Shown in pieces: positions 7,297 to 25,134 of a stretch of DNA of 29,037 nucleotides. A program made the position numbers and the translations under genes. Where the stretch lies: the IMG/VR virus record IMGVR_UViG_3300037137_003653, positions 1 to 29,037 of that record; one strand, given 5' to 3'. Each line of letters starts with the position of its first letter. Positions within the stretch are counted from its first letter, which is position 1. Origin of the DNA: a virus. The notes below the pieces were generated by a model that ran no database searches, had not been told where the DNA came from, and worked only from the letters and a program-made list of their open reading frames with translations.

Positions 7297-10200
7297 ATGT
7301 CCACAAGATCGAATACACCGTTTGTTCCATCATTTATGAAGGCTGTTGCAGGCAATACTAAGCCTGTTATCCAAACATATGCTGATGCTGATTTGAGTAA
7401 CTCTAATCATGCAGGCAACACATCATTCAAATATGATCCGCTTGATTCACCTCTCAAAAGTTCTCAACAGCTCAACGTAGATTGGTCAAAGTTTGAAAAT
7501 CATACTTTTTTCTCTTCTGCAGAAGTAAAAGTAAATGAGGCATTCAACAAGATAATCAACGGTTTTCCATTTGACGGAACTAGGAAAGAGGTCGAAGAGT
7601 ATCTTGATTCAATGACAGGATTTGAAAAATATGTCTTTGACAGCTTTCCAACGTGGTCAGGTGCACTGCATTTTTCAGGTACGTCAGTAACTGAAAATCC
7701 CGCAGGAGGATTCCAAGAAAAACTTGGAACATGGATAGCCGTTAAGGATAAATCAGGTAATCTATATCCTGAAATGTCAAAAAACAATGAGGGCGTAACA
7801 ATCATCAATCCTGCAGATGAAGAGACGTCAATGTCTATCGAAGCAATCATTCGAATACCAGAACTTGCAAATGACACACAAGTTATTTTTCAAAAAAGCT
7901 CAACTGACACTGATGGTTTTATGTTTCATCTTAGTCCATCAGTGTCATCCACTTCTGCTACTGCTGTTTTTAGTGTAACGTCAGGGTCGATATCAAATTC
8001 AGTTTCTTATGAGCTTTTAAAGGGTTCACCAAATCACGTCTGTGTAATTCTTAATAAAGAAGGAAGAGAAAATTCACTTCAATTTTATCTCAATGAATCG
8101 CTTCAGTCAGAAACAACTAAGAATAAAAAATTTGGAAAACTTTCAATTGATGAATCAGATTTTCTGATAGGGTCTGGCAGTACTTTTTATTCTGGCGGGA
8201 TCCTTGTAACACCTACACAAACTTTCAGCGGTTCGCTTGATGAATTGCGTATTTTTCATTCTGTTAGAGATACGCAGTCTCAAATCTTACAGTCATCTCG
8301 CGGTTTATATTCTACGCCTGATCTGAAACTTTACTATCGATTCAATGAACCTTCTGGGACATTATCTAATCTTAATTCTACGACAGATGCTGTTGTATTG
8401 GATAGCTCAGGCAATTCATTGCATTCAACAATTCAAAACTATGATGCATCACTGAGGCTTGATGCTACAGCAGATAGTGACAACATACTTGTTAATGAAC
8501 GAAAAGAATTCAAAACAGTATTATTTCCAACATATGAGCCGATATTGGAGCTCAATTTATCACTTTTGACTGAAGCTACAAAATATGACAGGGAAAATCC
8601 AAACAATATCATTAAGCTAATACCAAAACATTACCTTCTTGAAGGTGCATCACAAGACGGCTTCTATGATGTTGAAGGTGATGCAGGAAATCCTTATGCA
8701 GGCGATGGTGTACCCGGTCAGGGTAAAAAGGGCTCTGTTCAACTTATCCTGTCTTTTTTGTATATCTGGTCAAAGTTTTTTGATGAGATCAAGCTGTATG
8801 CAGATGCATTTAGTACACTTAGGACCGTCGGTTATGATGAGACTGATACGATCCCAGACAACTTTCTTGAAGATCTTGTCAGACAATATGGTTTTTATCT
8901 TCCAAAGTTCTTTACTAATTCAACAGTTGAACAATATGCTGATGGTCAATATATCCCAGGTTTAACTGACTTGGACACGCCGCTTAAGAAGATTCAGTCT
9001 ATCATTCTCCGTCGTGTTCTCACCAACATGCCAGACATAATCAGGTCAAAGGGAACACAACATAGTATCAAGTCATTTCTTAGATCAGTAGGAATAGATC
9101 CTGAAAATAGCATAAAAATTAGAGAATACGGCGGAGCAACAACCAAACAATTGTCTGCATCTCGTGAAAAGAAGTTTGAACCACTCGGCATGGTTAACTT
9201 TATCACTTCGTCTTTTGTGATAACTCAGCCGCTCTCAGGATCACGAATAGAACCTGGTTTTCCAAAGCCCGCAGGAAGCTTCATCACAAGCAAAATTACA
9301 AAAAGAAATACTGGGACAACTAACAGGTCTGACGGATTATTTACATCGGGTTCTTGGAACGTCGAAGGATGCTTCAAATTTACACCACAAAAAATATCAG
9401 AGATAGTAGGTAGTGAAGGTAATCAGTCATTATTTCGAATGATTGTCACCGGCAGTACTTTGCCAAGTCAACAACCAGCATTACTTGCAAATGTTGTCGC
9501 AACGCAAGGCAGTGGAAATCAACAAGATCCTGCAACTGTTGAATTATTCTGTAGACCAACTCAAAGTTCATCTGCAAAATTGTTGCATATGTCACTATCA
9601 TTATCAGGATCAGGTATATTTGACGGCGATCGTTGGAACGTTTCATTCGGTTGCATTAGAAATGATGAATTCGATTCAAGAGTAACATCTTCGTATTATT
9701 TGCGAGTTGGTAGAGCTGATGAAGGTGAAATATTAGATTCATATGTAACATCATCATATTTTGATGAATCAATCACCGGACAGAACAATCTCTTTAGAAC
9801 TGCATTATCAGGAACGAATGCATCTGGAAGTTATATCTGTATTGGTAATAATCAAGTTATTCCTGCAGGTATTGGTTACTCGCATCTTAACGATACTTTG
9901 TATTCAGATGATATTGCACGTACAGTTGACTTTGAAGGATGGGCAGCAGGCATACGTTTTTGGTCAAAGTCAATGACAGTTGATGAATGGAAAGAACATG
10001 TAAGAAATCCTAAGTCTACAGGCGTAGATGATCCGATGACGAACTTTAACTTCGTTACAGATATGTCTGGTTCATTTCAAAAACTTCGTCTAGATACATT
10101 TCATAAGCAACCAATACGTGATGCTGATGATAATGGCAACATCGTATTCGCAGATTTTAGTCAAAACAATAACGAACCTGATGGAACAGGTTTCGAACCG

Positions 10201-10812
10201 AATTCTCATGTTGTTATTGGTGATATTTTCCGCTTTAGTTACCTGTCACCTGCATTCGATGAATCAGCAACTGATGATAAGATTCGAATCAAGAGTTTTA
10301 CAAGCCCAGATCTACTAAATGAAAATCCATTTGCTGTTCCTTCACCGTCATATTTGAGTAATGATTACTTACTATCAGAAGAACCGCAGGATGATCTTCG
10401 ACTATCACTAGAATTTTCAATGATTGATTCACTAGATCGTGACATTGTTTCAATGTTTTCATCATTTGACATCTTAAATGACGTTCTTGGTAGTCCTGAA
10501 TTAATGTTCTCTGCTGATTACCCTGGTCTTGATGTACTTCGAGATGTTTACTTCAATCGATTGTCAGACAAGGTAGACTTTAGAAAATTCTTGGAATTCT
10601 ACAGGTGGTTCGATATATCAATATCAGGATTCATTGAACAACTTATACCTAGTAAGACACGGTACAAAGGAACAAATTTTGTGATTGAGTCTCACATGCT
10701 CGAGCGTCATAAGAACACATATCGTCATAGTGATAACTACATTGGTCAGAAGCAGATTATTGATGATAGCTTATTGGTTCAACAAATAGTCGGAGTATTT
10801 AGAAAATATTAA
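7297..10812 (+). CDS. Large baseplate wedge / tail protein with LamG-like domains and a gpI-like core (gp7 position)
   Basis: A 1171-residue protein starting one base after the previous stop, with GAGG eight bases upstream of the ATG. A LamG/concanavalin-like jelly roll is visible at about residues 170-330 (MSIEAIIRIPEL ... FSGSLDELRIFHSVRD). A core at about 480-610 resembles phage tail protein I: long helices around SFLYIWSKFFDEIKLYADAF, then LRRVLTNMPDIIRSKGTQHS and FLRSVGI, the 'R.KGT' helix. A second LamG-like region lies at about 685-905 (GWAAGIRFWSKSMTVDEWKE). The C-terminus ends in a helical IESHMLERHKNTYRH segment. Placement after gp6 and the size match T4 gp7, whose wedge role includes a gpI-like part. 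Equivalence to gp7 is inference; the structural role is likely. Confidence 0.7.
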   Translation: MSTRSNTPFVPSFMKAVAGNTKPVIQTYADADLSNSNHAGNTSFKYDPLDSPLKSSQQLNVDWSKFENHTFFSSAEVKVNEAFNKIINGFPFDGTRKEVEEYLDSMTGFEKYVFDSFPTWSGALHFSGTSVTENPAGGFQEKLGTWIAVKDKSGNLYPEMSKNNEGVTIINPADEETSMSIEAIIRIPELANDTQVIFQKSSTDTDGFMFHLSPSVSSTSATAVFSVTSGSISNSVSYELLKGSPNHVCVILNKEGRENSLQFYLNESLQSETTKNKKFGKLSIDESDFLIGSGSTFYSGGILVTPTQTFSGSLDELRIFHSVRDTQSQILQSSRGLYSTPDLKLYYRFNEPSGTLSNLNSTTDAVVLDSSGNSLHSTIQNYDASLRLDATADSDNILVNERKEFKTVLFPTYEPILELNLSLLTEATKYDRENPNNIIKLIPKHYLLEGASQDGFYDVEGDAGNPYAGDGVPGQGKKGSVQLILSFLYIWSKFFDEIKLYADAFSTLRTVGYDETDTIPDNFLEDLVRQYGFYLPKFFTNSTVEQYADGQYIPGLTDLDTPLKKIQSIILRRVLTNMPDIIRSKGTQHSIKSFLRSVGIDPENSIKIREYGGATTKQLSASREKKFEPLGMVNFITSSFVITQPLSGSRIEPGFPKPAGSFITSKITKRNTGTTNRSDGLFTSGSWNVEGCFKFTPQKISEIVGSEGNQSLFRMIVTGSTLPSQQPALLANVVATQGSGNQQDPATVELFCRPTQSSSAKLLHMSLSLSGSGIFDGDRWNVSFGCIRNDEFDSRVTSSYYLRVGRADEGEILDSYVTSSYFDESITGQNNLFRTALSGTNASGSYICIGNNQVIPAGIGYSHLNDTLYSDDIARTVDFEGWAAGIRFWSKSMTVDEWKEHVRNPKSTGVDDPMTNFNFVTDMSGSFQKLRLDTFHKQPIRDADDNGNIVFADFSQNNNEPDGTGFEPNSHVVIGDIFRFSYLSPAFDESATDDKIRIKSFTSPDLLNENPFAVPSPSYLSNDYLLSEEPQDDLRLSLEFSMIDSLDRDIVSMFSSFDILNDVLGSPELMFSADYPGLDVLRDVYFNRLSDKVDFRKFLEFYRWFDISISGFIEQLIPSKTRYKGTNFVIESHMLERHKNTYRHSDNYIGQKQIIDDSLLVQQIVGVFRKY

Positions 10813-17864: not shown

Positions 17865-18443
17865 ATGAGCCGTCGCGACACTAAATTGCTTTCTCTGTAT
17901 GTGAGAGCATTAATTGAATCTACAACCAACAAAAAAAGAGTATTAAGAATCTTTGATTTTGATGACACACTAGTCAAAACCGATTCTAGAATACATGTGT
18001 TAACTGCATCAGGAGACAAACTTAGCTTAACTAGCGGCGAGTATGCTGTGTATGCTCCGCAGTACGGAGACAAATTTGACTACTCAGATTTTTCAAAATT
18101 GGTTAATCCGTCTGAGATAAAATGGACGACAAAAATTCTTAAAAGAATAATTGCAAAAGGAGGAGAAGTTGTAATTCTAACTGCGCGCAGCGACCCAAAG
18201 CCAGTGCGTCAATTCATTAATGATATCAATTTAGCATATGTAGAAGTTGTTGCTCTGGGAGACTCAGATCCTCAAAAAAAAGCAGAATATATTTCTCGCA
18301 GACTAGATGAAGAAGACTTCAATGAGGTTGAATTCTTTGATGATTCATACAAGAATATCTTGGCAGTTGCAAACATTTCTGCTGATTATCCTGATGTGAA
18401 GATAATCACACGACATGTTACGCATACTCCCAAAATTAATTGA
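17865..18443 (+). CDS. HAD-superfamily phosphatase-like protein
   Basis: A 192-residue protein from ATG 17865. An upstream ATG at 17817 would add 16 poorly conserved-looking residues. The haloacid dehalogenase motifs are complete: D31-F-D33-D-T (motif I, nucleophile and general acid), VVILTAR (motif II region), a Lys-rich stretch after LGDSDPQKK (motif III) and EFFDDS (motif IV, metal-binding acidic pair). The type with a small cap is common in phages and resembles the 3'-phosphatase half of polynucleotide kinase-phosphatases, but substrate cannot be read from sequence. The N-terminus carries a basic helix (LLSLYVRALIES) ahead of the domain. It is the only clear + strand gene right of the late block and converges with the gene at 18436, overlapping by 8 bases. 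Confidence 0.8.
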   Translation: MSRRDTKLLSLYVRALIESTTNKKRVLRIFDFDDTLVKTDSRIHVLTASGDKLSLTSGEYAVYAPQYGDKFDYSDFSKLVNPSEIKWTTKILKRIIAKGGEVVILTARSDPKPVRQFINDINLAYVEVVALGDSDPQKKAEYISRRLDEEDFNEVEFFDDSYKNILAVANISADYPDVKIITRHVTHTPKIN

Positions 18444-18936
18444 TCTTGCCGGCTACGACATTCGAAGCTTCGACAGCATGTGCTGCCTGAGTTGCTGAGA
18501 ATAACTTAGAAAAATCAAACTTAGAATGTACTTTTTCATTTATGGGAATTATTCTGATGTCCTTCTGGGCAGCCTGCTTGGTCCATGGGACAGCACCTCC
18601 AACCACCCAACCTGTATACAATTCTACAAAGCTTGTTTTTGCTGACGTCACGTCTGATGGCAACATCTTGACAGCACGTATGTTGTCATACCGCTCATGA
18701 TTCAATGAGATCTTTGGATTTGGACCGTGGTTCGTGTCAACGTAGTAATACTCACAACCCAGCCATTCAATTTCTACAAATTCTTTTTGTTCAAGGCTCA
18801 TGACTGTTGCACGTTCTTTCCATGCAACAGAATCAACAGGATCTTCACGAAGATAATATGCAGCTTCTACAGAATCAAATACATTAAATGACCAATAGGT
18901 GGCAGATTTTTTTAGGCTTAGTCTTATCTTTTTCAC
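18436..18936 (-). CDS. Hypothetical protein, unknown family
   Basis: A 166-residue protein starting with GTG at 18936; the ATG at 18948 is out of frame. No family recognised. It appears soluble, with alternating charged helices and strands (EFVEIEWLGCEYYYVDTNHG) and a helical C-terminus (KLFSATQAAHAVEASNVVAG). It is the last gene of the long leftward unit, 28 bases after tilS, and its end overlaps the convergent HAD gene by 8 bases. A 12-base palindrome TCGAAGCTTCGA lies in its last codons (18462-18473). Confidence 0.6.
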   Translation of the reverse strand: MKKIRLSLKKSATYWSFNVFDSVEAAYYLREDPVDSVAWKERATVMSLEQKEFVEIEWLGCEYYYVDTNHGPNPKISLNHERYDNIRAVKMLPSDVTSAKTSFVELYTGWVVGGAVPWTKQAAQKDIRIIPINEKVHSKFDFSKLFSATQAAHAVEASNVVAGKIN

Positions 18937-18964
18937 GTATGCCGATCATATCACATGTCAGCAA

Positions 18965-19564
18965 TTAAGAAACTATCTCAGCAAGATATTTCTTTCGAAT
19001 CACGCTTCGAAGGCCTGGATTCACTATTAGTGCAGCAGGTACAATATCTTTTCGAATCAGATTACGCATAAATCTTACATCATTGTTGCTGGCATCTTCA
19101 CACCATGAAAGATTTTGACGTTTGCACCAAGACATGAATTCTGATTTTGGCGTCATTAGAAATGGCCGAATTACATTCCCTCTTTTGTATGGAATGATTT
19201 TTCCATTGCCACGAAGCGATGTGAAAATCCATGTCTCAACAGAATCATCAAGATGATGTGCTGTGATTACAGGGCCATCAATTGTCGAAAGAAAGTTGTA
19301 TCGATGTTCTCTCCAAAAATCTTCTAGAGATCGACCTTTTGGAGGTGCAAAATCAAGCTTGCCACGAGTCAATTTTAGACTTCGTTTATTTGCAAATTCA
19401 CTAACAAAAATTTCTGCTTCGGCTGAAGCGACAGTATTGTGATTAAAGAATGCAAGATCTACGCGCCTAGATCTCAAAAGAAAATCAACGACAGCGACAG
19501 AATCAACACCGCCTGAAAAAGCAACAGTGCACTTTTCTGGAAGCTTGCCTAGAATTTTTATCAT
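18965..19564 (-). CDS. tilS: Minimal tRNA(Ile)-lysidine synthase TilS
   Basis: A 199-residue protein containing the TilS catalytic core. The PP-loop ATPase motif S17-G-G-V-D-S22 lies near the N-terminus. It is followed by ITAHHLDDSVETWIFTSLRGNG-type residues (about 100-121), IRPFL, and WCEDASNNDVRFMRN then LIRKDIVPA, the TilS-specific block. TilS uses ATP and lysine to convert C34 of the CAU anticodon of tRNA-Ile2 into lysidine, changing both its charging (Met to Ile) and its decoding (AUG to AUA). E. coli TilS has over 400 residues. Here the protein ends just after the core, with no C-terminal tRNA-binding domains. The ATG is 16 bases downstream of a CAU tRNA gene bearing TilS identity features, so enzyme and substrate are probably cotranscribed. 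Confidence 0.88.
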   Translation of the reverse strand: MIKILGKLPEKCTVAFSGGVDSVAVVDFLLRSRRVDLAFFNHNTVASAEAEIFVSEFANKRSLKLTRGKLDFAPPKGRSLEDFWREHRYNFLSTIDGPVITAHHLDDSVETWIFTSLRGNGKIIPYKRGNVIRPFLMTPKSEFMSWCKRQNLSWCEDASNNDVRFMRNLIRKDIVPAALIVNPGLRSVIRKKYLAEIVS

Positions 19565-19580
19565 GATTTGTTAGATTTTG

Positions 19581-19657
19581 TGGACCGGGTGGGACTCGAA
19601 CCCACACATCTACAGTTTATGAGACTGTCGCTTTAACCTATATTTAGCTACCGGTCC
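19581..19657 (-). tRNA. tRNA with CAU anticodon, probably tRNA-Ile2 (AUA decoding)
   Basis: A 77-base cloverleaf: acceptor GGACCGG/CCGGTCC, D arm with GG in the loop, anticodon stem ACAGT/ACTGT with loop CTCATAA (anticodon CAU), T arm GTGGG-TTCGAGT-CCCAC and discriminator A73. CAU may mean Met or Ile2. The acceptor has C4-G69 and C5-G68, which are known TilS recognition pairs in E. coli tRNA-Ile2 and differ from elongator tRNA-Met. The adjacent tilS supports Ile2. CCA is not encoded (the discriminator is followed by CAA), so a CCA-adding enzyme is needed. The variable region is six bases, one more than usual, and the D stem has only three good pairs. Confidence 0.9.
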
Positions 19658-19703
19658 GTAAATTTATATGTTGTTAAGATTACTTTAATGTGTCTTCCAA
19701 TTG

Positions 19704-19786
19704 TGCCCTGGGTCGGATTCGAACCGACATATCATCGCTGATGGTTGATTTTGAATCAACTGTGTCTGCCATTCCACCACCAGGGC
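19704..19786 (-). tRNA. tRNA-Leu(CAA)
   Basis: An 83-base class II tRNA: acceptor GCCCTGG/CCAGGGC, anticodon arm GTTGA-TTCAAAA-TCAAC giving anticodon CAA (reads UUG), long variable arm with an ATCA/TGAT stem, T arm GTCGG-TTCGAAT-CCGAC and discriminator A73. The anticodon arm is the same as that of E. coli tRNA-Leu(CAA). CCA is not encoded. It lies 46 bases upstream of the CAU tRNA in the same orientation. Confidence 0.95.
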
Positions 19787-19826
19787 ATGAACTTATTCTA
19801 TCATATAGCGTAAGTATTTTACATGG

Positions 19827-20243
19827 TTAGATCAATTTTAAGTTTCCCGTGATCTCATCTATCTTATCAATTTCATCAGGGCCAAGTGCTATTGCGACCA
19901 TTTGCACAGTTTCTGGAAATTCTAATTCTGGTGAATCAGATTTTACATCGTCCGCGACGCGTTTTTCAACAGTATAGCAAGGAACTCCTTTGATCTCTGC
20001 TTTGAATACAAGCGACTTCAAGGCATTTTCTGAAGCAACGCCGACGATTACAAGTGTCCCATCATTCTGCAACCATTCTGCTTCATATGGTGTGAGTTCG
20101 ACAGCCAACTTATCTAGTTGTTCAGAAGTGTCATTGTCAAAAATAAATTTAGATGATGCCTTTGCCACTAGTGCTGCTAGTGCTGCACGACGAAGCCTCA
20201 GATCTCGCCTAACGACAACAACCTGCTTAAGTGACTTTGACAT
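19827..20243 (-). CDS. Pth2-like peptidyl-tRNA hydrolase
   Basis: A 138-residue protein starting at the ATG at 20243, since homologs begin just before KQVVVVRRDL; a longer frame to 20285 overlaps NADAR. It shows the Pth2 layout: strand KQVVVVRRDL, a long helix, G-T-L-V-I-V-G-V strand, helix NALKSLVFKAEIKGVPCYTV, and the C-terminal signature ALGPDEIDKIDEITGNLKLI. Pth2 releases peptides from peptidyl-tRNA that drops off ribosomes. It is archaeal and eukaryotic but also occurs in some bacteria and phages. Two usual catalytic stretches are altered: GKxAAQxxHA is replaced by RLRRAALAALVAKAS, and the DAGRTQ loop by ADDVKSD. It could therefore be a divergent enzyme or a DUF2000-type relative. It lies immediately upstream of two tRNA genes and tilS. 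Confidence 0.7.
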   Translation of the reverse strand: MSKSLKQVVVVRRDLRLRRAALAALVAKASSKFIFDNDTSEQLDKLAVELTPYEAEWLQNDGTLVIVGVASENALKSLVFKAEIKGVPCYTVEKRVADDVKSDSPELEFPETVQMVAIALGPDEIDKIDEITGNLKLI

Positions 20244-20268
20244 GTAACGGATATTACACCGTAATTTA

Positions 20269-20727
20269 TCATGCGTCTGCTGCAAATTCTAGTTGAATTG
20301 CATCACGTTCATCCATGATGATCTTGCCAAGCCAATTCGAACCGGTTCCACGACAGATACCCCAAAACGTATCATTCCAAGTATTGTTATAGACTAGTTC
20401 TGCATTGCTAGTCGAAAGAAGCCGCGGCCGCAAGAATGGATTTTCAAATTTCTTCTTTATGAAATCTCGCATCAGTTCGAGCTTCACTGAATCCCAGTCA
20501 GGCCGAATCTGAATACATCTTCCAAGTTTCTTGGCTTCCGCAGGTGTTGCAGCGCGCCGTATGATATCACGAATATTCTCATCCAATGTTTTATGCGCCT
20601 GATAAGCATGTTCACAAGTCTTGTATGACTTGCCATCTACATAGATTGTTGATGGATGAAAATTTGACAGAAATCCATAACCTGCTTCATTTGTAAAGCT
20701 ACTAATTATATGATTTTCTGTATTCAT
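20269..20727 (-). CDS. NADAR domain (YbiA-like) N-glycosidase / ADP-ribose hydrolase
   Basis: A 152-residue single-domain protein from ATG 20727. The family pattern is complete: GFLSNFHPSTIYVDGKSY, TCEHAYQAHKT, the AATPAEAKKLGR helix, RPDWDSVKLELM, KKKFENPFLRPRLLST, and NNTWNDTFWGICRGTGSNWL then GKIIM. NADAR proteins are linked to NAD/ADP-ribose metabolism; YbiA acts in riboflavin-intermediate repair and other members remove ADP-ribose from guanine, countering DarT-type DNA-modifying toxins. In a phage, reversal of host ADP-ribosylation defence is a reasonable idea. It sits in the leftward unit, 11 bases after the DUF551-like gene and 25 before the Pth2-like gene. The ribosome site is weak. 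Confidence 0.88.
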   Translation of the reverse strand: MNTENHIISSFTNEAGYGFLSNFHPSTIYVDGKSYKTCEHAYQAHKTLDENIRDIIRRAATPAEAKKLGRCIQIRPDWDSVKLELMRDFIKKKFENPFLRPRLLSTSNAELVYNNTWNDTFWGICRGTGSNWLGKIIMDERDAIQLEFAADA

Positions 20728-20738
20728 TTTGATCTGAC

Positions 20739-21002
20739 TTAGAAAGGCGCCTGCGGCCACTTTCGCCAATAAATTTTGGCATCTTCTGGGATGTTGCCAT
20801 CAACAGCCGGTCCATGATATGTGAGTGCAGTATACTCCACTTTGCCATTCTGAATACTGCATGCGAGCACCTCTTCACCGATCGGCGGTTTCACCTTTGG
20901 TGCAAGATTCCAGCCATTTTTTGTGAACAAGCGAATTATCATTGGAATGATAATTGATCCACATAGCGTTCCCATCAGGAAGTCGAAGCCGTGCGCGTTC
21001 AT
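20739..21002 (-). CDS. Small membrane-anchored protein with a DUF551-like tail
   Basis: An 87-residue protein with the best ribosome site in the window: AGGAGG four bases before the ATG. Residues about 9-27 (LMGTLCGSIIIPMIIRLF) form one membrane helix. The remainder resembles DUF551: KPPIGEEVLACS (the 'P..GeeVL' start), a short beta core and the ending PEDAKIYWRKWPQAP. DUF551 proteins are common in phages and have no known function. Having a membrane anchor in front is unusual. It follows the G+C-rich island, and its base composition is intermediate. Confidence 0.7.
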   Translation of the reverse strand: MNAHGFDFLMGTLCGSIIIPMIIRLFTKNGWNLAPKVKPPIGEEVLACSIQNGKVEYTALTYHGPAVDGNIPEDAKIYWRKWPQAPF

Positions 21003-21027
21003 GTGTCCTCCTGTGCTCTCATGCGGA

Positions 21028-21264
21028 TCATCGCGACACCATGTGTGTGTGCGGCGCTCGCAGTTCGCCGGCGAAATCGCAATGAACCATCATCGCAAGA
21101 TGTCGCAGCGCCACGAGCATGTCGTCCGCGGTGCCGCGGAGGCCCGTCTCAATAATCACCGCGTAGGCCGCGGTTGTCTCCGGGCTGTAGGCCACGGTCC
21201 TAGGTGGAGGGCTTGCCTCCGCCGTGACGGGCTTCGCCGGAGTAGCGGTGTCTGGCTGCTTCAC
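21028..21264 (-). CDS. Small hypothetical protein of the G+C-rich cascade
   Basis: A 78-residue frame starting at GTG 21264, whose bases overlap the TGA of the preceding gene (GTGA). The N-terminal half is Pro/Ala/Thr-rich and probably disordered (TPAKPVTAEASPPPRTV). The C-terminal half is a compact helical part (AYAVIIETGLRGTADDMLVA, LRHLAMMVHCDF). Its opening, Met-Lys-Gln from GTG AAG CAG, is the same as in the two 19-codon ORFs upstream. Unknown family. Confidence 0.55.
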   Translation of the reverse strand: MKQPDTATPAKPVTAEASPPPRTVAYSPETTAAYAVIIETGLRGTADDMLVALRHLAMMVHCDFAGELRAPHTHMVSR

Positions 21265-21521
21265 GGTTGCACCGGAGTCCGCATAGCCACGAACATGTGC
21301 TCGACGACTCGGGGCGCTCGAATGAACGCCGCCGGGAAAAGATTCGGGCACAGTTCTCGGACGGACATCATGAGCGCGTCGCCCTGGGCTTCGGTGGCTA
21401 GGTGCAGAGCAAGCCCGGCGTCGTCAACCCAATCGAAGTGCCGCGCCGAGGCGCGGAGGTATGCTGGCCCCGGTGCTTCGATCAGCCAGTAGCACTTCTC
21501 CGTGGGTGTTCCGTCGCTCAT
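21261..21521 (-). CDS. Small phage hypothetical protein (YWLIEA-type)
   Basis: An 86-residue protein from ATG 21521, which overlaps the preceding ORF's TGA in an ATGA junction. The opening CYWLIEAPGPAYL followed by HFDWVDDAGLALHLATEAQG resembles a small phage family in which a short beta strand precedes a W-(x)-D-D and a helix, often written as YWLIE...FxWTxDxxxAxxF. Function unknown. The C-terminus ends Val-Gln-Pro-stop, as does the 62-residue gene upstream. Confidence 0.65.
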   Translation of the reverse strand: MSDGTPTEKCYWLIEAPGPAYLRASARHFDWVDDAGLALHLATEAQGDALMMSVRELCPNLFPAAFIRAPRVVEHMFVAMRTPVQP

Positions 21522-21577
21522 GGGATTGCTTCTTTCTGGATCCGCTCCACGCGGACTGCCGGCCTCTGTTGCTTCAC
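21518..21577 (-). CDS. 19-codon ORF, copy 2 (MKQQRPAVRVERIQKEAIP)
   Basis: GTG at 21577 overlaps the TGA of the small membrane protein upstream, and its own TGA overlaps the next ATG. The product MKQQRPAVRVERIQKEAIP matches the copy at 21690-21749 at 8 of 19 positions with several conservative changes, and has the same length and the same coupled junctions. It may be a basic microprotein or simply a translated coupling device. Confidence 0.45.
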   Translation of the reverse strand: MKQQRPAVRVERIQKEAIP

Positions 21578-21693
21578 GGGGCACGATCCTTTCTTTCGGT
21601 CATCGTGAGATCGACTGTGGCGTGCCAGTACCCGTCGATGTACCCGACAAGCCCACCGAGCAGCACGCCGCCGAGGAGCCACGCAAAGGTCAA
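21574..21693 (-). CDS. 39-residue single-pass membrane protein
   Basis: Starts at TTG 21693, overlapping the upstream TGA (TTGA). No ATG or GTG is available nearby in this frame, so translation probably depends on coupling. Residues about 3-19 (FAWLLGGVLLGGLVGYI) form one membrane helix, followed by a short polar tail ending RKDRAP. No family recognised. The small glycine-zipper-like helix could be a holin-like, accessory or regulatory peptide, but nothing shows which. Confidence 0.5.
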   Translation of the reverse strand: MTFAWLLGGVLLGGLVGYIDGYWHATVDLTMTERKDRAP

Positions 21694-21749
21694 CGGACTG
21701 CCTCTTCCATGACCCGGTCGGTCCAGATAGCTGGTCGCTGTTGCTTCAC
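21690..21749 (-). CDS. 19-codon ORF, copy 1 (MKQQRPAIWTDRVMEEAVR)
   Basis: GTG at 21749 overlaps the upstream gene's TGA, and its TGA overlaps the next TTG. AAGGTG lies a few bases upstream of the GTG. The 19-residue product MKQQRPAIWTDRVMEEAVR is a clear relative of the ORF at 21518-21577. Two related ORFs of equal length, in different local frames and with the same coupling, suggest real translation. Confidence 0.45.
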   Translation of the reverse strand: MKQQRPAIWTDRVMEEAVR

Positions 21750-21751
21750 GG
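21742..21751 (-). repeat. Junction repeat CCGTGAAGCA, copy 1 of 3
   Basis: Ten identical bases occur at three gene junctions on the - strand: 21742-21751, 21570-21579 and 21257-21266. Each contains the stop TGA of one gene inside the GTG start of the next, so that the upstream product ends in Pro and the downstream product starts Met-Lys-Gln. The first two copies extend to CCGTGAAGCAACAG. Confidence 0.7.
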
Positions 21752-21934
21752 CTGCACCTTCGTCTTTTCGGCGGACGTGCCCTGCTTCCGCAGGTATGTG
21801 CGCCCGGCCACATTGTCGTTTAACGCCCAGCGCACCGTGAGGCGCGCGCCAACCGGGATGCGGTAGACGTCGGCCTGAGACTTGACGGCATTTATTCCGA
21901 CTATTTCTGATGCTATTTGCTTATTTGACATCAT
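21746..21934 (-). CDS. Small hypothetical protein spanning the composition boundary
   Basis: A 62-residue frame from ATG 21934 (a second ATG follows at 21931), overlapping the upstream gene by 14 bases. The first ~15 codons are A+T-rich (AAT AAG CAA ATA), and the rest are strongly G+C-rich from about 21892 on. The second part (YRIPVGARLTVRWALNDNVA then GRTYLRK) looks like a compact small phage domain. The protein may be a fusion created at the edge of the inserted island. Ends Val-Gln-Pro-stop in a GTGA junction. Confidence 0.55.
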   Translation of the reverse strand: MMSNKQIASEIVGINAVKSQADVYRIPVGARLTVRWALNDNVAGRTYLRKQGTSAEKTKVQP

Positions 21935-22244
21935 GGTTGCCGGGCGCGTAATATACGGTGTCACCACCCCAAGTAAAAGCCTGTTCAAGCGCATCTTCAA
22001 GCTCAGGAGTAAGCGCGCCACCATACACGTCTTCTTCTATACCCCAGCGGGCTTCGCTTGCGTTGTACTCTGACAACATGACTTCGCCTTCCAATTCACC
22101 TTGCCAAACTGCACGAAGTGACACTTCGGATGCCAGGAAGGCAACATGTCGAGCTAGTCTTCGACCATACTCTTCGATGAAAGCTTGTGCTGCATTGGGA
22201 TACTTTTCCACCAGCTCCGAGAATCGTAGCGCCGGCACATTCAT
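21921..22244 (-). CDS. Hypothetical acidic helical protein
   Basis: A 107-residue protein if it begins at ATG 22244, which forms an ATGA overlap with the VWA gene. An ATG at 22250 adds two residues. It opens with a helix (LRFSELVEKYPNAAQAFIEE), has a central part containing LSEYNASEARWGIEEDVYGG, and an acidic helix TPELEDALEQAF. No family recognised. Its intermediate base composition matches the VWA gene rather than the G+C-rich genes after it. Confidence 0.6.
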   Translation of the reverse strand: MNVPALRFSELVEKYPNAAQAFIEEYGRRLARHVAFLASEVSLRAVWQGELEGEVMLSEYNASEARWGIEEDVYGGALTPELEDALEQAFTWGGDTVYYAPGNHDVK

Positions 22245-23584
22245 CGCCATGCACCCTGAATGACAGCATTGTCAGAGATGTTAATCTGAAGCTCTTCAGT
22301 ATTGAACATCATCTTCCGGCCGCGCCCGATAACGTAACCTCGCTTGATTCGCGACGGCCTCGGTGCGTTACATTCACCGTCAGACATGATGAGAAGTCCG
22401 TCCCACCGACCACGATTCTTTGGTGCATTTGCGAAATCCGTCGGAGCATTGAAGTCAGTGCCACCGCCAAGTTCGCGCTGTGCAACGATATTCGTTCCAC
22501 GCTTCCACGTGAAGAGATTCTGCTCTTTAACACGCGTGTCAAACGGAATGACATCAATCGATACTTTCTTTGTGAGAGAGTTCAATTCACCGAAGAACTC
22601 GACAAGCATTTCGTTGGAGACAGAACCCGACTGATCGATCGCGATCAGAAGTTTTGCCTCATATGACCGCTTAATTCCCGGGTGAATGTAAGGAAACCGC
22701 TTGTTGATTCGCTTGATCGAAGTGCTCCGGCCCCCGCGATTGATCGACCCGATGAATTGGCGAAGAACAGAGCGCCAATTAACGACACTTGCGACAGACT
22801 TCCGAATTGCCTCGATTAGGTCGAGCGGGATATTACCCCAACCGTTCGACTGCTGATCAGCAGTCTTTGCAGCCTTTTCGACCATTGACTTGACCTTGCC
22901 TTCGACGTATTCGCGAATCTCCTCGGGAATATCATCCCAGCCATCGTGGCTGTCCATCTGACCGTTTCCAGGGATGTAATACGTACCACTTCCCTCGCCA
23001 CCGTCAGATTCAAAGTCTTCATCATCTTTGATCTGCTCGTTGATTTTGTCAAAGTACCATTCAGATGCCTGCATGATAGGCAGCTTTTCGATGATTTCAC
23101 CGAACTTCTGTGCAGCTCGTTCTTCCTTGGTCGGCTCTTTGCCTGCCTCGACAGGCCGCGGCACGTACTTCATGCCAGGAACATATGCAAATCCAGGCAG
23201 GATTTGACTGCCAGTAAGTGTCCTGTACGAACCAGCTTTGAATGCCTCTACCAAGATGGAGTTAATCGCGAGGTCAGTTGAAATGTTCCACAGCTCGTGT
23301 GGCTTGCGCCGCCGCCCGTAAAGGTGGCCAAACACGATATGATAGAACTCGTGGGTGATGACGCCGCGAACTTCTGCCTGAGACAGCTTTGAAAAGAAGT
23401 CCGGATTGTACAGGAGGCACAAGTCGTCAGTCTTTTCATTGAATGCGACACCTGCTGTCGGTATGTTCCTCGTCGGAATCTTCGTGATGTGTCGGGACAG
23501 TTCCGCAAAGAAGGGATTGTCCTGAAGGAATTTGATGAGTTCAACATGAATGTTGAAGTCTGTTTCGCAGGGGGTTAGGTCCAT
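22241..23584 (-). CDS. HExxH metallopeptidase-like / VWA domain protein (DUF2201-type)
   Basis: A 447-residue protein from ATG 23584. The N-terminal half is the putative metallopeptidase region of DUF2201-type proteins, with zinc motif H78-E-F-Y-H82 and a further His at 87. The C-terminal half is a von Willebrand A domain with the metal-site motif D317-Q-S319-G-S321, then GGGTDF and MSDGE. A charged linker lies between (GEGSGTYYIPGNGQMDSHDG). Bacterial relatives work with a MoxR-type AAA+ ATPase to remodel or mature target complexes; large phages often have such pairs. No MoxR partner lies in this window. Arg codons are often CGN and composition is near 50% G+C (30 of 60 at 22741-22800), unlike the A+T-rich neighbours. 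First gene of a leftward unit with a promoter directly in front. Confidence 0.85.
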   Translation of the reverse strand: MDLTPCETDFNIHVELIKFLQDNPFFAELSRHITKIPTRNIPTAGVAFNEKTDDLCLLYNPDFFSKLSQAEVRGVITHEFYHIVFGHLYGRRRKPHELWNISTDLAINSILVEAFKAGSYRTLTGSQILPGFAYVPGMKYVPRPVEAGKEPTKEERAAQKFGEIIEKLPIMQASEWYFDKINEQIKDDEDFESDGGEGSGTYYIPGNGQMDSHDGWDDIPEEIREYVEGKVKSMVEKAAKTADQQSNGWGNIPLDLIEAIRKSVASVVNWRSVLRQFIGSINRGGRSTSIKRINKRFPYIHPGIKRSYEAKLLIAIDQSGSVSNEMLVEFFGELNSLTKKVSIDVIPFDTRVKEQNLFTWKRGTNIVAQRELGGGTDFNAPTDFANAPKNRGRWDGLLIMSDGECNAPRPSRIKRGYVIGRGRKMMFNTEELQINISDNAVIQGAWR

Positions 23585-23590
23585 GGTTCT

Positions 23591-23620
23591 AGTATATCTT
23601 GATTTGAAGAAGGTTTGCAC
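23591..23620 (-). promoter_or_regulatory. GTGCAA/TATACT promoter, leaderless start of the VWA unit
   Basis: On the - strand GTGCAA (23620-23615), 18 bases, TATACT (23596-23591), 6 bases, then the ATG at 23584. Initiation six to seven bases past the hexamer would fall on the start codon. No Shine-Dalgarno fits between. The spacing is the same at 27802-27831 and 28900-28929. Confidence 0.7.
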
Positions 23621-23820: not shown

Positions 23821-25134
23821 CTAGCTGAATAACTTGTCGAGAATTCGTAAAAGTTCATCAATTTCATTACTTGTGATGCTCAAGTTTGGTCTTAGTCGAA
23901 TTGTGTCACCTGCAGCTCCCATTATAAGTAATGAATGCTCGGCAAGTGCTCGTTCGATTAATTTTGATTTTGTGCCTGTTTGACAGAGGCTAAAGCCAAG
24001 GTAAAGACCGTATCCGCGCACATTATGAATAGATCTAGGCACTCTTCGTGCAAGTGATTCTAAGCCCGACCGCAAGTGTTCTGATTTGTCTGCAACAAGT
24101 CCAATGAGATTTTCTTCTTCAACTATTTTCATCTCTTGCACAAATCGAACCATGTCGACTAGCGGACCTGACCACGTCGAGTCAAGTACGCCACTTTCAA
24201 CGGGCGCATTCTTCATCCAAAGTATGCCACATGCAAATTTCTTTGCACTCACGACGACTTCTGGTGGGTGTTCAAGGCCGAGCTGGTCACATAAGAATAT
24301 CGTGCCACATGGTCCGCCACCCGTTTGAACTTCATCAAAACATAGAGGTGTATCGTACTTCTTGCTAAGTAGGCTAAGTTTTTGAAAAAACTCTGGATGT
24401 GCAACACGATGGCCACCGGCGCCCTGCATTGGTTCAACAACAATTCCTGCATAATCGAAATTTGACAGCTCCCGTTCAATTTCAATCAAGCTAGATTGTA
24501 ACAATTCATTACTTGCATTCATATCATGTGGCTGCCATTCTGGAAATGGAATTTTTTGACTCTGCACGTCTTCAAAAGACTCAAAGTCTTGAGTTACAAC
24601 TGAATTGTGTGGCGTATGAGTAATGCCAAGTGTAAATACTGTTCTACCATGAAAGCCTTGTTCAAATGTCAAGAATCTTGCAGGCCTTCTTCGAATTCTG
24701 TTTTTTTGCCACTTGCTTACAAGATATTTGAGGCCATTTTCCATTGCCTCTGCACCTGAGTTAAGTGTAAAAATTTTCCCAGTAAATTTTCCTGAAGAAT
24801 TTGAATCTAGCATGCACCTCGGCGCAATTTGCATTGCCAATTTGTAATATGCAACAATTTCAGGAGTAACAAAATCAGGATTTGATACCTTGTTATTTGC
24901 GGCATATGACAGTCGCTTTAAATATTCTTGTTCAAAGAGCCTAGCATGATTATGACCAATTAGCTTTGATGCGTAATAATTGACCCAGTCGAAGATTTTT
25001 CGTCCTTCGACTGTCACAAGATGTGATCCCGAACATTTTGACAAATCTATTACAAAATGTCGCGGCTCCATAATGACGTAGTCACGAAACTCATCGATTA
25101 AATCACTTTCTAATGATTGCATTTTTGTGTTCAC
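23821..25134 (-). CDS. PLP-dependent class III aminotransferase, L-lysine 6-aminotransferase-like
   Basis: A 437-residue, full-length fold-type I aminotransferase. Features in order: FVIDLSKCSGSHLVTVEGRK and ASKLIGHNHARL near the N-terminus, TLNSGAEAMENGLKY (cofactor phosphate region), EQGFHGRTVFTLGITH, VVEPMQGAGGH, FDEVQTGGGPCGT (Asp near 266 contacts the PLP ring) and SAKK298-K299-FACG with the Schiff-base lysine. The FDEVQTG-G-(x)2-GT, AKKxxxCG and DSTWSGPLVDMVRF blocks are characteristic of lysine 6-aminotransferases, which move the epsilon-amino group of lysine to 2-oxoglutarate, giving 2-aminoadipate semialdehyde. The GTG start at 25134 overlaps the membrane-protein TGA; an ATG at 25122 is an alternative. 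Unusual cargo for a phage; the physiological substrate is inferred. Confidence 0.82.
   Translation of the reverse strand: MNTKMQSLESDLIDEFRDYVIMEPRHFVIDLSKCSGSHLVTVEGRKIFDWVNYYASKLIGHNHARLFEQEYLKRLSYAANNKVSNPDFVTPEIVAYYKLAMQIAPRCMLDSNSSGKFTGKIFTLNSGAEAMENGLKYLVSKWQKNRIRRRPARFLTFEQGFHGRTVFTLGITHTPHNSVVTQDFESFEDVQSQKIPFPEWQPHDMNASNELLQSSLIEIERELSNFDYAGIVVEPMQGAGGHRVAHPEFFQKLSLLSKKYDTPLCFDEVQTGGGPCGTIFLCDQLGLEHPPEVVVSAKKFACGILWMKNAPVESGVLDSTWSGPLVDMVRFVQEMKIVEEENLIGLVADKSEHLRSGLESLARRVPRSIHNVRGYGLYLGFSLCQTGTKSKLIERALAEHSLLIMGAAGDTIRLRPNLSITSNEIDELLRILDKLFS

Follow-up and report, generated by a model that had tools for sequence, protein, structure and literature searches.

A block of small, overlapping minus-strand genes in a viral contig carries three copies of a ~90-bp repeated leader element, and the array to which it belongs is otherwise known here only from quite different, G+C-rich phages. 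The window (the whole stretch of DNA analysed, 29,037 bases) is one whole virus contig. We consider it probable that the block is a segment of the leader-punctuated array of phages with ~65% G+C, now lying in an unrelated T4-like myovirus, and that the leader serves as a bicistronic relay and as a recombination boundary. A wider proposal is put forward much more tentatively: that these phages possess a translated gene-cassette system, in which a ~90-bp module combines a ribosome entry site, a leader ORF and a recombination boundary, any small gene inserted behind it is translated at once, and blocks of genes can cross between lineages and G+C contents.

The open question addressed by this proposal is how phages keep fast-changing small genes expressed while these are being swapped. 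A repeated leader would standardise translation at each joint and supply homology for exchange, which is a concrete and testable answer. It would also explain the abundance of tiny ORFs in such regions, which annotation drops, and the elements would be natural bicistronic leaders usable for G+C-rich hosts. No description of a translated repeated leader was found in the limited set of literature searched.

The G+C-rich block and its coupled genes

The contig carries baseplate genes, a DNA ligase, an NADAR gene, a TilS-like gene and two tRNAs and, from its sequence, is a fragment of a large T4-like myovirus. Its G+C content is 0.38 over positions 1-20900 and 0.62 over 21003-21934 (0.64 for 21003-21870). 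The G+C-rich island of the original prediction is therefore present, at 62% in a 38% contig, but its right edge is gradual: 21890-21934 is A+T-rich and the VWA gene still has 50% G+C. Third-position G+C for the VWA and ligase genes is 0.57 and 0.39 in the window, 0.79 and 0.72 in L002, 0.89 and 0.83 in L004, and 0.49 and 0.36 in L005. Since the excess of VWA over ligase also occurs in these relatives, the 50% G+C seems to be characteristic of the gene, which would lie outside the island. A like composition in related genomes would speak against capture of the block; the island is absent from the nearest VWA relatives (L002-L005) and from the NADAR/PTH2 relative (L022). The order NADAR, PTH2-like, 166-aa gene is also found in L022, without any island there; in the window, the NADAR gene followed by the PTH2-like gene and tRNAs occupies 18436-20727.

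Within the block, six small minus-strand genes follow one another as predicted, with the junctions GTGA (B62/C19), TTGA (C19/D39), GTGA (D39/E19), ATGA (E19/F86) and GTGA (F86/G78). The coupled run is longer than these six genes. Upstream, the VWA gene overlaps A107 as ATGA (22244) and A107 overlaps B62 by 14 nt; downstream, G78 is joined through ATGA to a mini-ORF, MIRMRAQEDT, and this through a further ATGA to H87 (21002). Any TGA that follows A, G or T yields a 4-nt overlap, so that single overlaps mean little; five successive overlaps from one start arise in 0.1% of random sequences of 62% G+C. Codon-position G+C along the chain is 0.66/0.48/0.73 in the proposed frames and a flat 0.62 in any fixed frame, which shows that the chain genes are coding. 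It is this bias, together with the paralogy of C19 and E19 (see below), that makes the small genes real.

All genes of the run are on the minus strand. The first is the VWA/metallopeptidase-like gene (DUF2201; 22241..23620), which matches Pfam PF13203/PF09967 and PHROG 1314 and has relatives of 60-63% identity in L002-L005. A107 (21921..22244) is a 107-aa ORF of 52% G+C with no homolog among the fetched loci, Pfam or PHROGs. B62 (21746..21934) is a hybrid gene made up of an A+T-rich start (21934-21890), a body homologous to the phage contig G006 (21889-21769) and a tail, EKTKVQP*, from the leader element. D39 (21574..21693; 39 aa, TTG start) is called from its ORF and its codon-position G+C; one hydrophobic segment is visible by eye and no homolog was found. 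F86 (21261..21521), an 86-aa orphan cargo gene, terminates with TPVQP*, which is already the 5' portion of the following element, and has no match in phages, plasmids, viral contigs, genome contigs, Pfam, PHROGs or PADLOC. G78 (21028..21264) is a leader-fused cargo protein; its likeness to other array genes ends at the leader and its body after residue ~22 is an orphan. The mini-ORF (20999..21031) carries AGGAGG and has an ATGA overlap at each end, and H87 (20739..21002) encodes 87 aa. The protein search of each ORF gave homologs for B62 and H87, with A107, D39, F86 and the G78 body remaining orphans. For the cargo genes, no convincing match to a defence or other known function was found. A promoter scan of the block, using sigma-70-type signals that may not be those of the host's sigma factors, stayed at chance level, which speaks neither for nor against the control by the VWA promoter that was originally predicted.

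The cascade of tiny genes is thus as first described, but its main feature, the repeated leader element, was missing from that description. Each of the three copies in the block is laid out as an SD, GTG-AAG-CAR-CA, 19 codons and then another SD, which is embedded and overlaps the start that follows. The product is either a 19-residue leader ORF (21749-21690 and 21577-21518) or an in-frame fusion to the next protein (21264-21202). Leader element 1 (21678..21773) consists of the SD and start AAGGTGCAGCC-GTG, the free leader C19 (VKQQRPAIWTDRVMEEAVR), the embedded SD and the TTGACC start of D39. In element 2 (21506..21601) the leader is E19 (VKQQRPAVRVERIQKEAIP), a paralog of C19 that closes as ATGA on F86, and in element 3 (21193..21288) it reads directly into the G78 body as an in-frame fusion (VKQPDTATPAKPVTAEASPPP). 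The full-length alignment of C19 with E19 (19 residues) has a score reached by none of 200,000 permutations. Both keep MKQQRPA, their codons for the conserved Arg, Pro, Ala and Glu differ synonymously, and the pair suggests some selection on the leader peptide. Element 3 is 88% identical in nucleotides to L058 9049-9116 over 68 bp and the G78 leader is 76% identical in residues to its nearest copy over 21; because the nucleotide identity is the higher, selection on the peptide is uncertain for this leader.

Leader arrays in G+C-rich phages

A degenerate pattern for MKQQRPA[VI] matched a phage contig of 65% G+C in which the leader, VKQQRPAVQNYPDTKDATP, has 19 residues, closes as ATGA and is preceded by GGTGCAACC-GTG; additional contigs came from other patterns. 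At its 5' side the element sits in the end of the preceding gene, often ..EKTPVQP* (DNA ..AGGTGCAACC), and at its 3' side TTGACC or ATGA is preceded by an SD rich in purines, for example GAAAGAGGCAATCCG. In fused copies the frame continues into the next protein, usually via PPP (CCTCCACCT).

A leader profile was then built without the window and run twice with different seed sets. In the 29-kb window the first model matched only the block, at three places (E values of 4e-15 for element 3, 2e-14 for element 1 and 8e-11 for element 2); the second seed set gave 4e-15, 9e-15 and 5e-9 in the same order. At E <=1e-3, the second model found 3, 4, 6, 5 and 5 elements in G001, G002, G003, G004 and G006, respectively, a total of 23 in five ~65% G+C phage contigs outside the window. 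The elements of each contig are confined to one same-strand stretch of 1-2 kb, the small-gene array, and none occurred elsewhere in the fetched parts (G001, G003 and G004 were fetched incompletely). A length of exactly 19 codons recurs in at least eight free leaders, including two in the window, and some leaders are degraded by frameshift (for example, L063 3245). In the single virus collection used, the carriers are six contigs (the five phage contigs and the window), with no isolate and no bacterial genome among them; no convincing match was found in the isolate phages or bacterial genomes searched. Pattern matches in genome contigs were discarded as probably due to chance: none has array context and only L065 passes E 0.001 in the leader model.

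The carrier contigs encode terminase, portal, head protease, sheath or tape measure and DnaB helicase, as well as a RecE-like exonuclease (G003), a tyrosine recombinase and a cytosine methylase. The carriers are recognisable as phages by their RecE-like exonuclease, integrase, sheath, portal and terminase. In G001 and G003 the tyrosine recombinase lies directly 5' of the array.

The arrays turn over. Between G001 and G003, identity is 96% across 11.4 kb of head and tail genes and 94% across the integrase gene; in their arrays the two have in common only leader elements (38-66 bp, 76-87%) and two stretches of 25-39 bp near the array end. In an all-against-all protein comparison of array genes, likeness is mostly limited to residues 1 to ~20-25. 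As the leaders are nearly the sole homology between arrays, recombination at leaders could swap cargo. One cargo gene is common to G002 and G006 (83% over 168 bp) with different neighbours, and the common stretch runs from inside its own leader to ~10 bases into the following one, just past the next start. G006 contains a duplicate gene pair of 94% identity. At L069 5450-5653 and 6553-6756, two copies of a leader-headed cargo gene, 94% identical, lie 1.1 kb apart with different neighbours, evidently a recent duplication within the array.

Translation signals and comparison with known systems

Each unit of an array is headed by the ~90-bp module, with an SD and spacer (typically AGGTGCAACC) placed within the 3' end of the preceding gene, a GTG start with the conserved AAG CAR CA, and then 19 codons with a second SD at their 3' end. 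The leader either stops in a 4-nt overlap with the next start, which would make it a natural bicistronic leader, or reads on in frame. In the mechanism that we propose, the module would recruit ribosomes at a weakly structured start and pass them to the following gene, and recombination between leaders would exchange cargo genes with translation being kept. Phage recombination works on short, diverged homology (PMC3945230) and would use the leader as its boundary. In the window, the segment would have replaced the stretch between B62 and H87, genes that stand in the same order in G006.

SD pairing is enriched at the positions concerned: its mean is -6.1 kcal at genes after a leader and -4.5 at leaders, compared with -2.2 at random positions, while folding at leader starts is weaker than at G+C-matched positions (-6.2 versus -8.0), although the elements are homologous copies, so that these SD and folding statistics are not independent and their p-values are optimistic. 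In all nine listed copies the stop overlaps the next start by 4 nt. An embedded SD is also present at most of the leader-headed junctions, that of E19 for F86 being weak (-1.0 kcal). No stable RNA fold of the element was detected (z-scores of -0.5 to +2.0 relative to dinucleotide-shuffled sequences; RNA energy parameters). Overlaps of 4 nt usually couple translation (13 of 14 pairs, in other genes; PMC6728339), and re-initiation from gene to gene, as originally predicted, is plausible here. In several fused copies the SD lies opposite CCTCC in a short hairpin (L058 9833-9904, L058 9053 and window 21203-21231); the CCTCC of the PPP codons, by pairing with the internal SD over up to 8 bp, could silence internal initiation.

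Arbiol et al. (2010) reportedly described a short repeated regulatory element between small genes and proposed that it mediates gene shuffling; these mobile regulatory cassettes of T4-type phages are said to be early promoters with stem-loops, placed between genes. The leader arrays share this layout. The leader element is translated and has no excess folding, whereas the cassettes reportedly have a stem-loop. That study is cited, with regard to mobile regulatory cassettes of T4-type phages, in PMC4177764.

The leader element resembles the BCD leader, which is shorter than 20 aa, has an SD1 and an SD2 embedded in its 3' end, and is directly coupled to its target (PMC5995908). With a leader of fewer than 20 codons and a second SD embedded in it, expression depends less on what sequence lies downstream (PMC5995908). 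Two of its defining features were found here: a leader ORF of less than 20 aa (19 codons) with its own SD, at the mean pairing energy given above, and a second SD in the leader 3' end with a stop/start overlap, this SD being weak in E19. The leader element may work in the same way. The BCD is synthetic and present once per construct (PMC5995908), whereas the leader is natural, repeated through the array and sometimes fused to its target. Termination-reinitiation pairs (PMC6728339) have 4-nt stop/start overlaps with intragenic SD motifs, as does the window, but are ordinary gene pairs, whereas the relay here would be a dedicated mini-ORF, inserted in repeated copies.

The SAS and ESAS of cluster K mycobacteriophages and cluster EF Microbacterium phages (PMC3203893, PMC7302621) are, like the leader element, conserved repeats at the starts of many unrelated small phage genes, and they are thought to act in translation initiation. 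The SAS is a 13-bp sequence upstream of the start, to which the ESAS adds inverted repeats (PMC3203893, PMC7302621). The leader element, in contrast, reaches back into the previous gene, contains the start itself as well as 19 codons that are translated, and has no excess folding. An SAS reading was rejected, as the 13-bp consensus 5'-GGGATAGGAGCCC (PMC3203893) has no match with up to two mismatches at any leader start.

Borders of the block and competing explanations

The phage contig G006 contains two B62 homologs and one H87 homolog, ~1.0 kb apart and in the order seen in the window. B62 is 88% identical in nucleotides to the two G006 copies over 120 bp (21889 to 21769); this homology stops abruptly at leader element 1 and leaves B62 truncated. 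It resumes at 21023 with MRAQEDT*, the remnant of a gene before H87; the G006 counterpart of this 3' part of the mini-ORF is a longer gene ending in MRAKEDT*. The H87 start region contains a 36-base run identical to G006, which includes the first ~33 nt of H87; past this run H87 is A+T-rich and diverged, with 59% protein identity to its G006 homolog over the gene. Outside these border regions, the rest of the window has no match to G006. Both borders of the block therefore fall inside genes (B62 and H87). Since G006 has homologs of the genes flanking the array segment, the block can be read as a segment of such a gene set. The original prediction that it was captured from a phage of a high-G+C host gains support, because the leader elements as well as B62 and H87 have homologs in phage contigs of ~65% G+C.

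A block placed between two genes common to the recipient and to such phages fits homologous exchange, but an assembler could also slip there. We judge the join in the window likely to be real. The transplant into an A+T-rich phage depends on this join; the array system, seen in five phage contigs and the window, does not. Were the join an assembly chimera, an array phage of high G+C present in the same sample would have been joined in silico at stretches common to both contigs. The position of both borders inside genes with close relatives in a high-G+C phage, the 36-bp run at the H87 border (enough to mislead an assembler) and the abruptness of the composition change would all fit. Such an error would, however, require two independent switches ~0.9 kb apart, at sites that the recipient must itself contain. 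Moreover, the divergence and A+T-richness of H87 past the run mean that the recipient already had this gene type, and the overlapping gene order continues through both borders. We therefore regard a chimera as unlikely.

Other explanations concern the leader itself. Slightly less likely again than a chimera is that the leaders are merely inherited gene starts (paralogous heads), functionless leftovers of gene turnover. They are clearly paralogous, some are frameshifted (as in L063, above) and fused versions exist; yet free copies have exactly 19 codons, the second SD is kept beside a start, and the leader is conserved across contigs whose cargo was replaced. It is improbable that the active entity is the 19-residue peptide (as a regulatory peptide or a tag for localisation, for instance), with the protein fusion as its functional state. 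C19 and E19 retain MKQQRPA despite synonymous codon changes and one head is fused to several unrelated proteins, but the C-terminal half is highly variable, several copies are free-standing and the closest fused copies are more alike in nucleotides than in protein. The least probable explanation, to which we give hardly any weight, is an integron-like cassette array with the repeat as an attC-type site for the adjacent tyrosine recombinase. Integrons, including phage-borne ones (PMC9892861), likewise have small genes split by a repeat, phages are able to carry them (PMC9892861), and a tyrosine recombinase lies nearby in two contigs, directly 5' in G001 and G003. The leader arrays, unlike integrons, lack attC core sites, a hairpin and an integron integrase, and the attC reading was rejected on these three counts: the RYYYAAC/GTTRRRY core pair is present in none of 21 elements, there is no excess folding, and the G001 recombinase scores 19.9 bits against TIGR02249 (integron integrase; cutoff 265) and resembles an ordinary XerC/phage integrase.

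A second junction type was seen at L074 15371-18830 (G006 55.4-58.8 kb): in consecutive small genes the last codons often read EDT* (GGAGGACACATGA) and overlap the ATG of the following gene. This type, which may be another repeated start module, includes H87 and its neighbour in the window. Elsewhere in the window, the TilS-like (tRNA-lysidine synthetase) gene at 18965-19657 adjoins a tRNA called Met(CAT). This tRNA may be an Ile2 tRNA needing lysidine, in which case the phage may supply a tRNA together with its modifying enzyme. In L005, a 35% G+C relative of the window phage, the VWA gene is followed on the opposite strand by a 772-aa repetitive, tail-fibre-like gene of ~55% G+C (8022-10340). 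Finally, a class III aminotransferase at 23821-25134 of the window is unusual cargo for a phage operon; its nearest model is L-lysine 6-transaminase, with a score well below the cutoff of that model.
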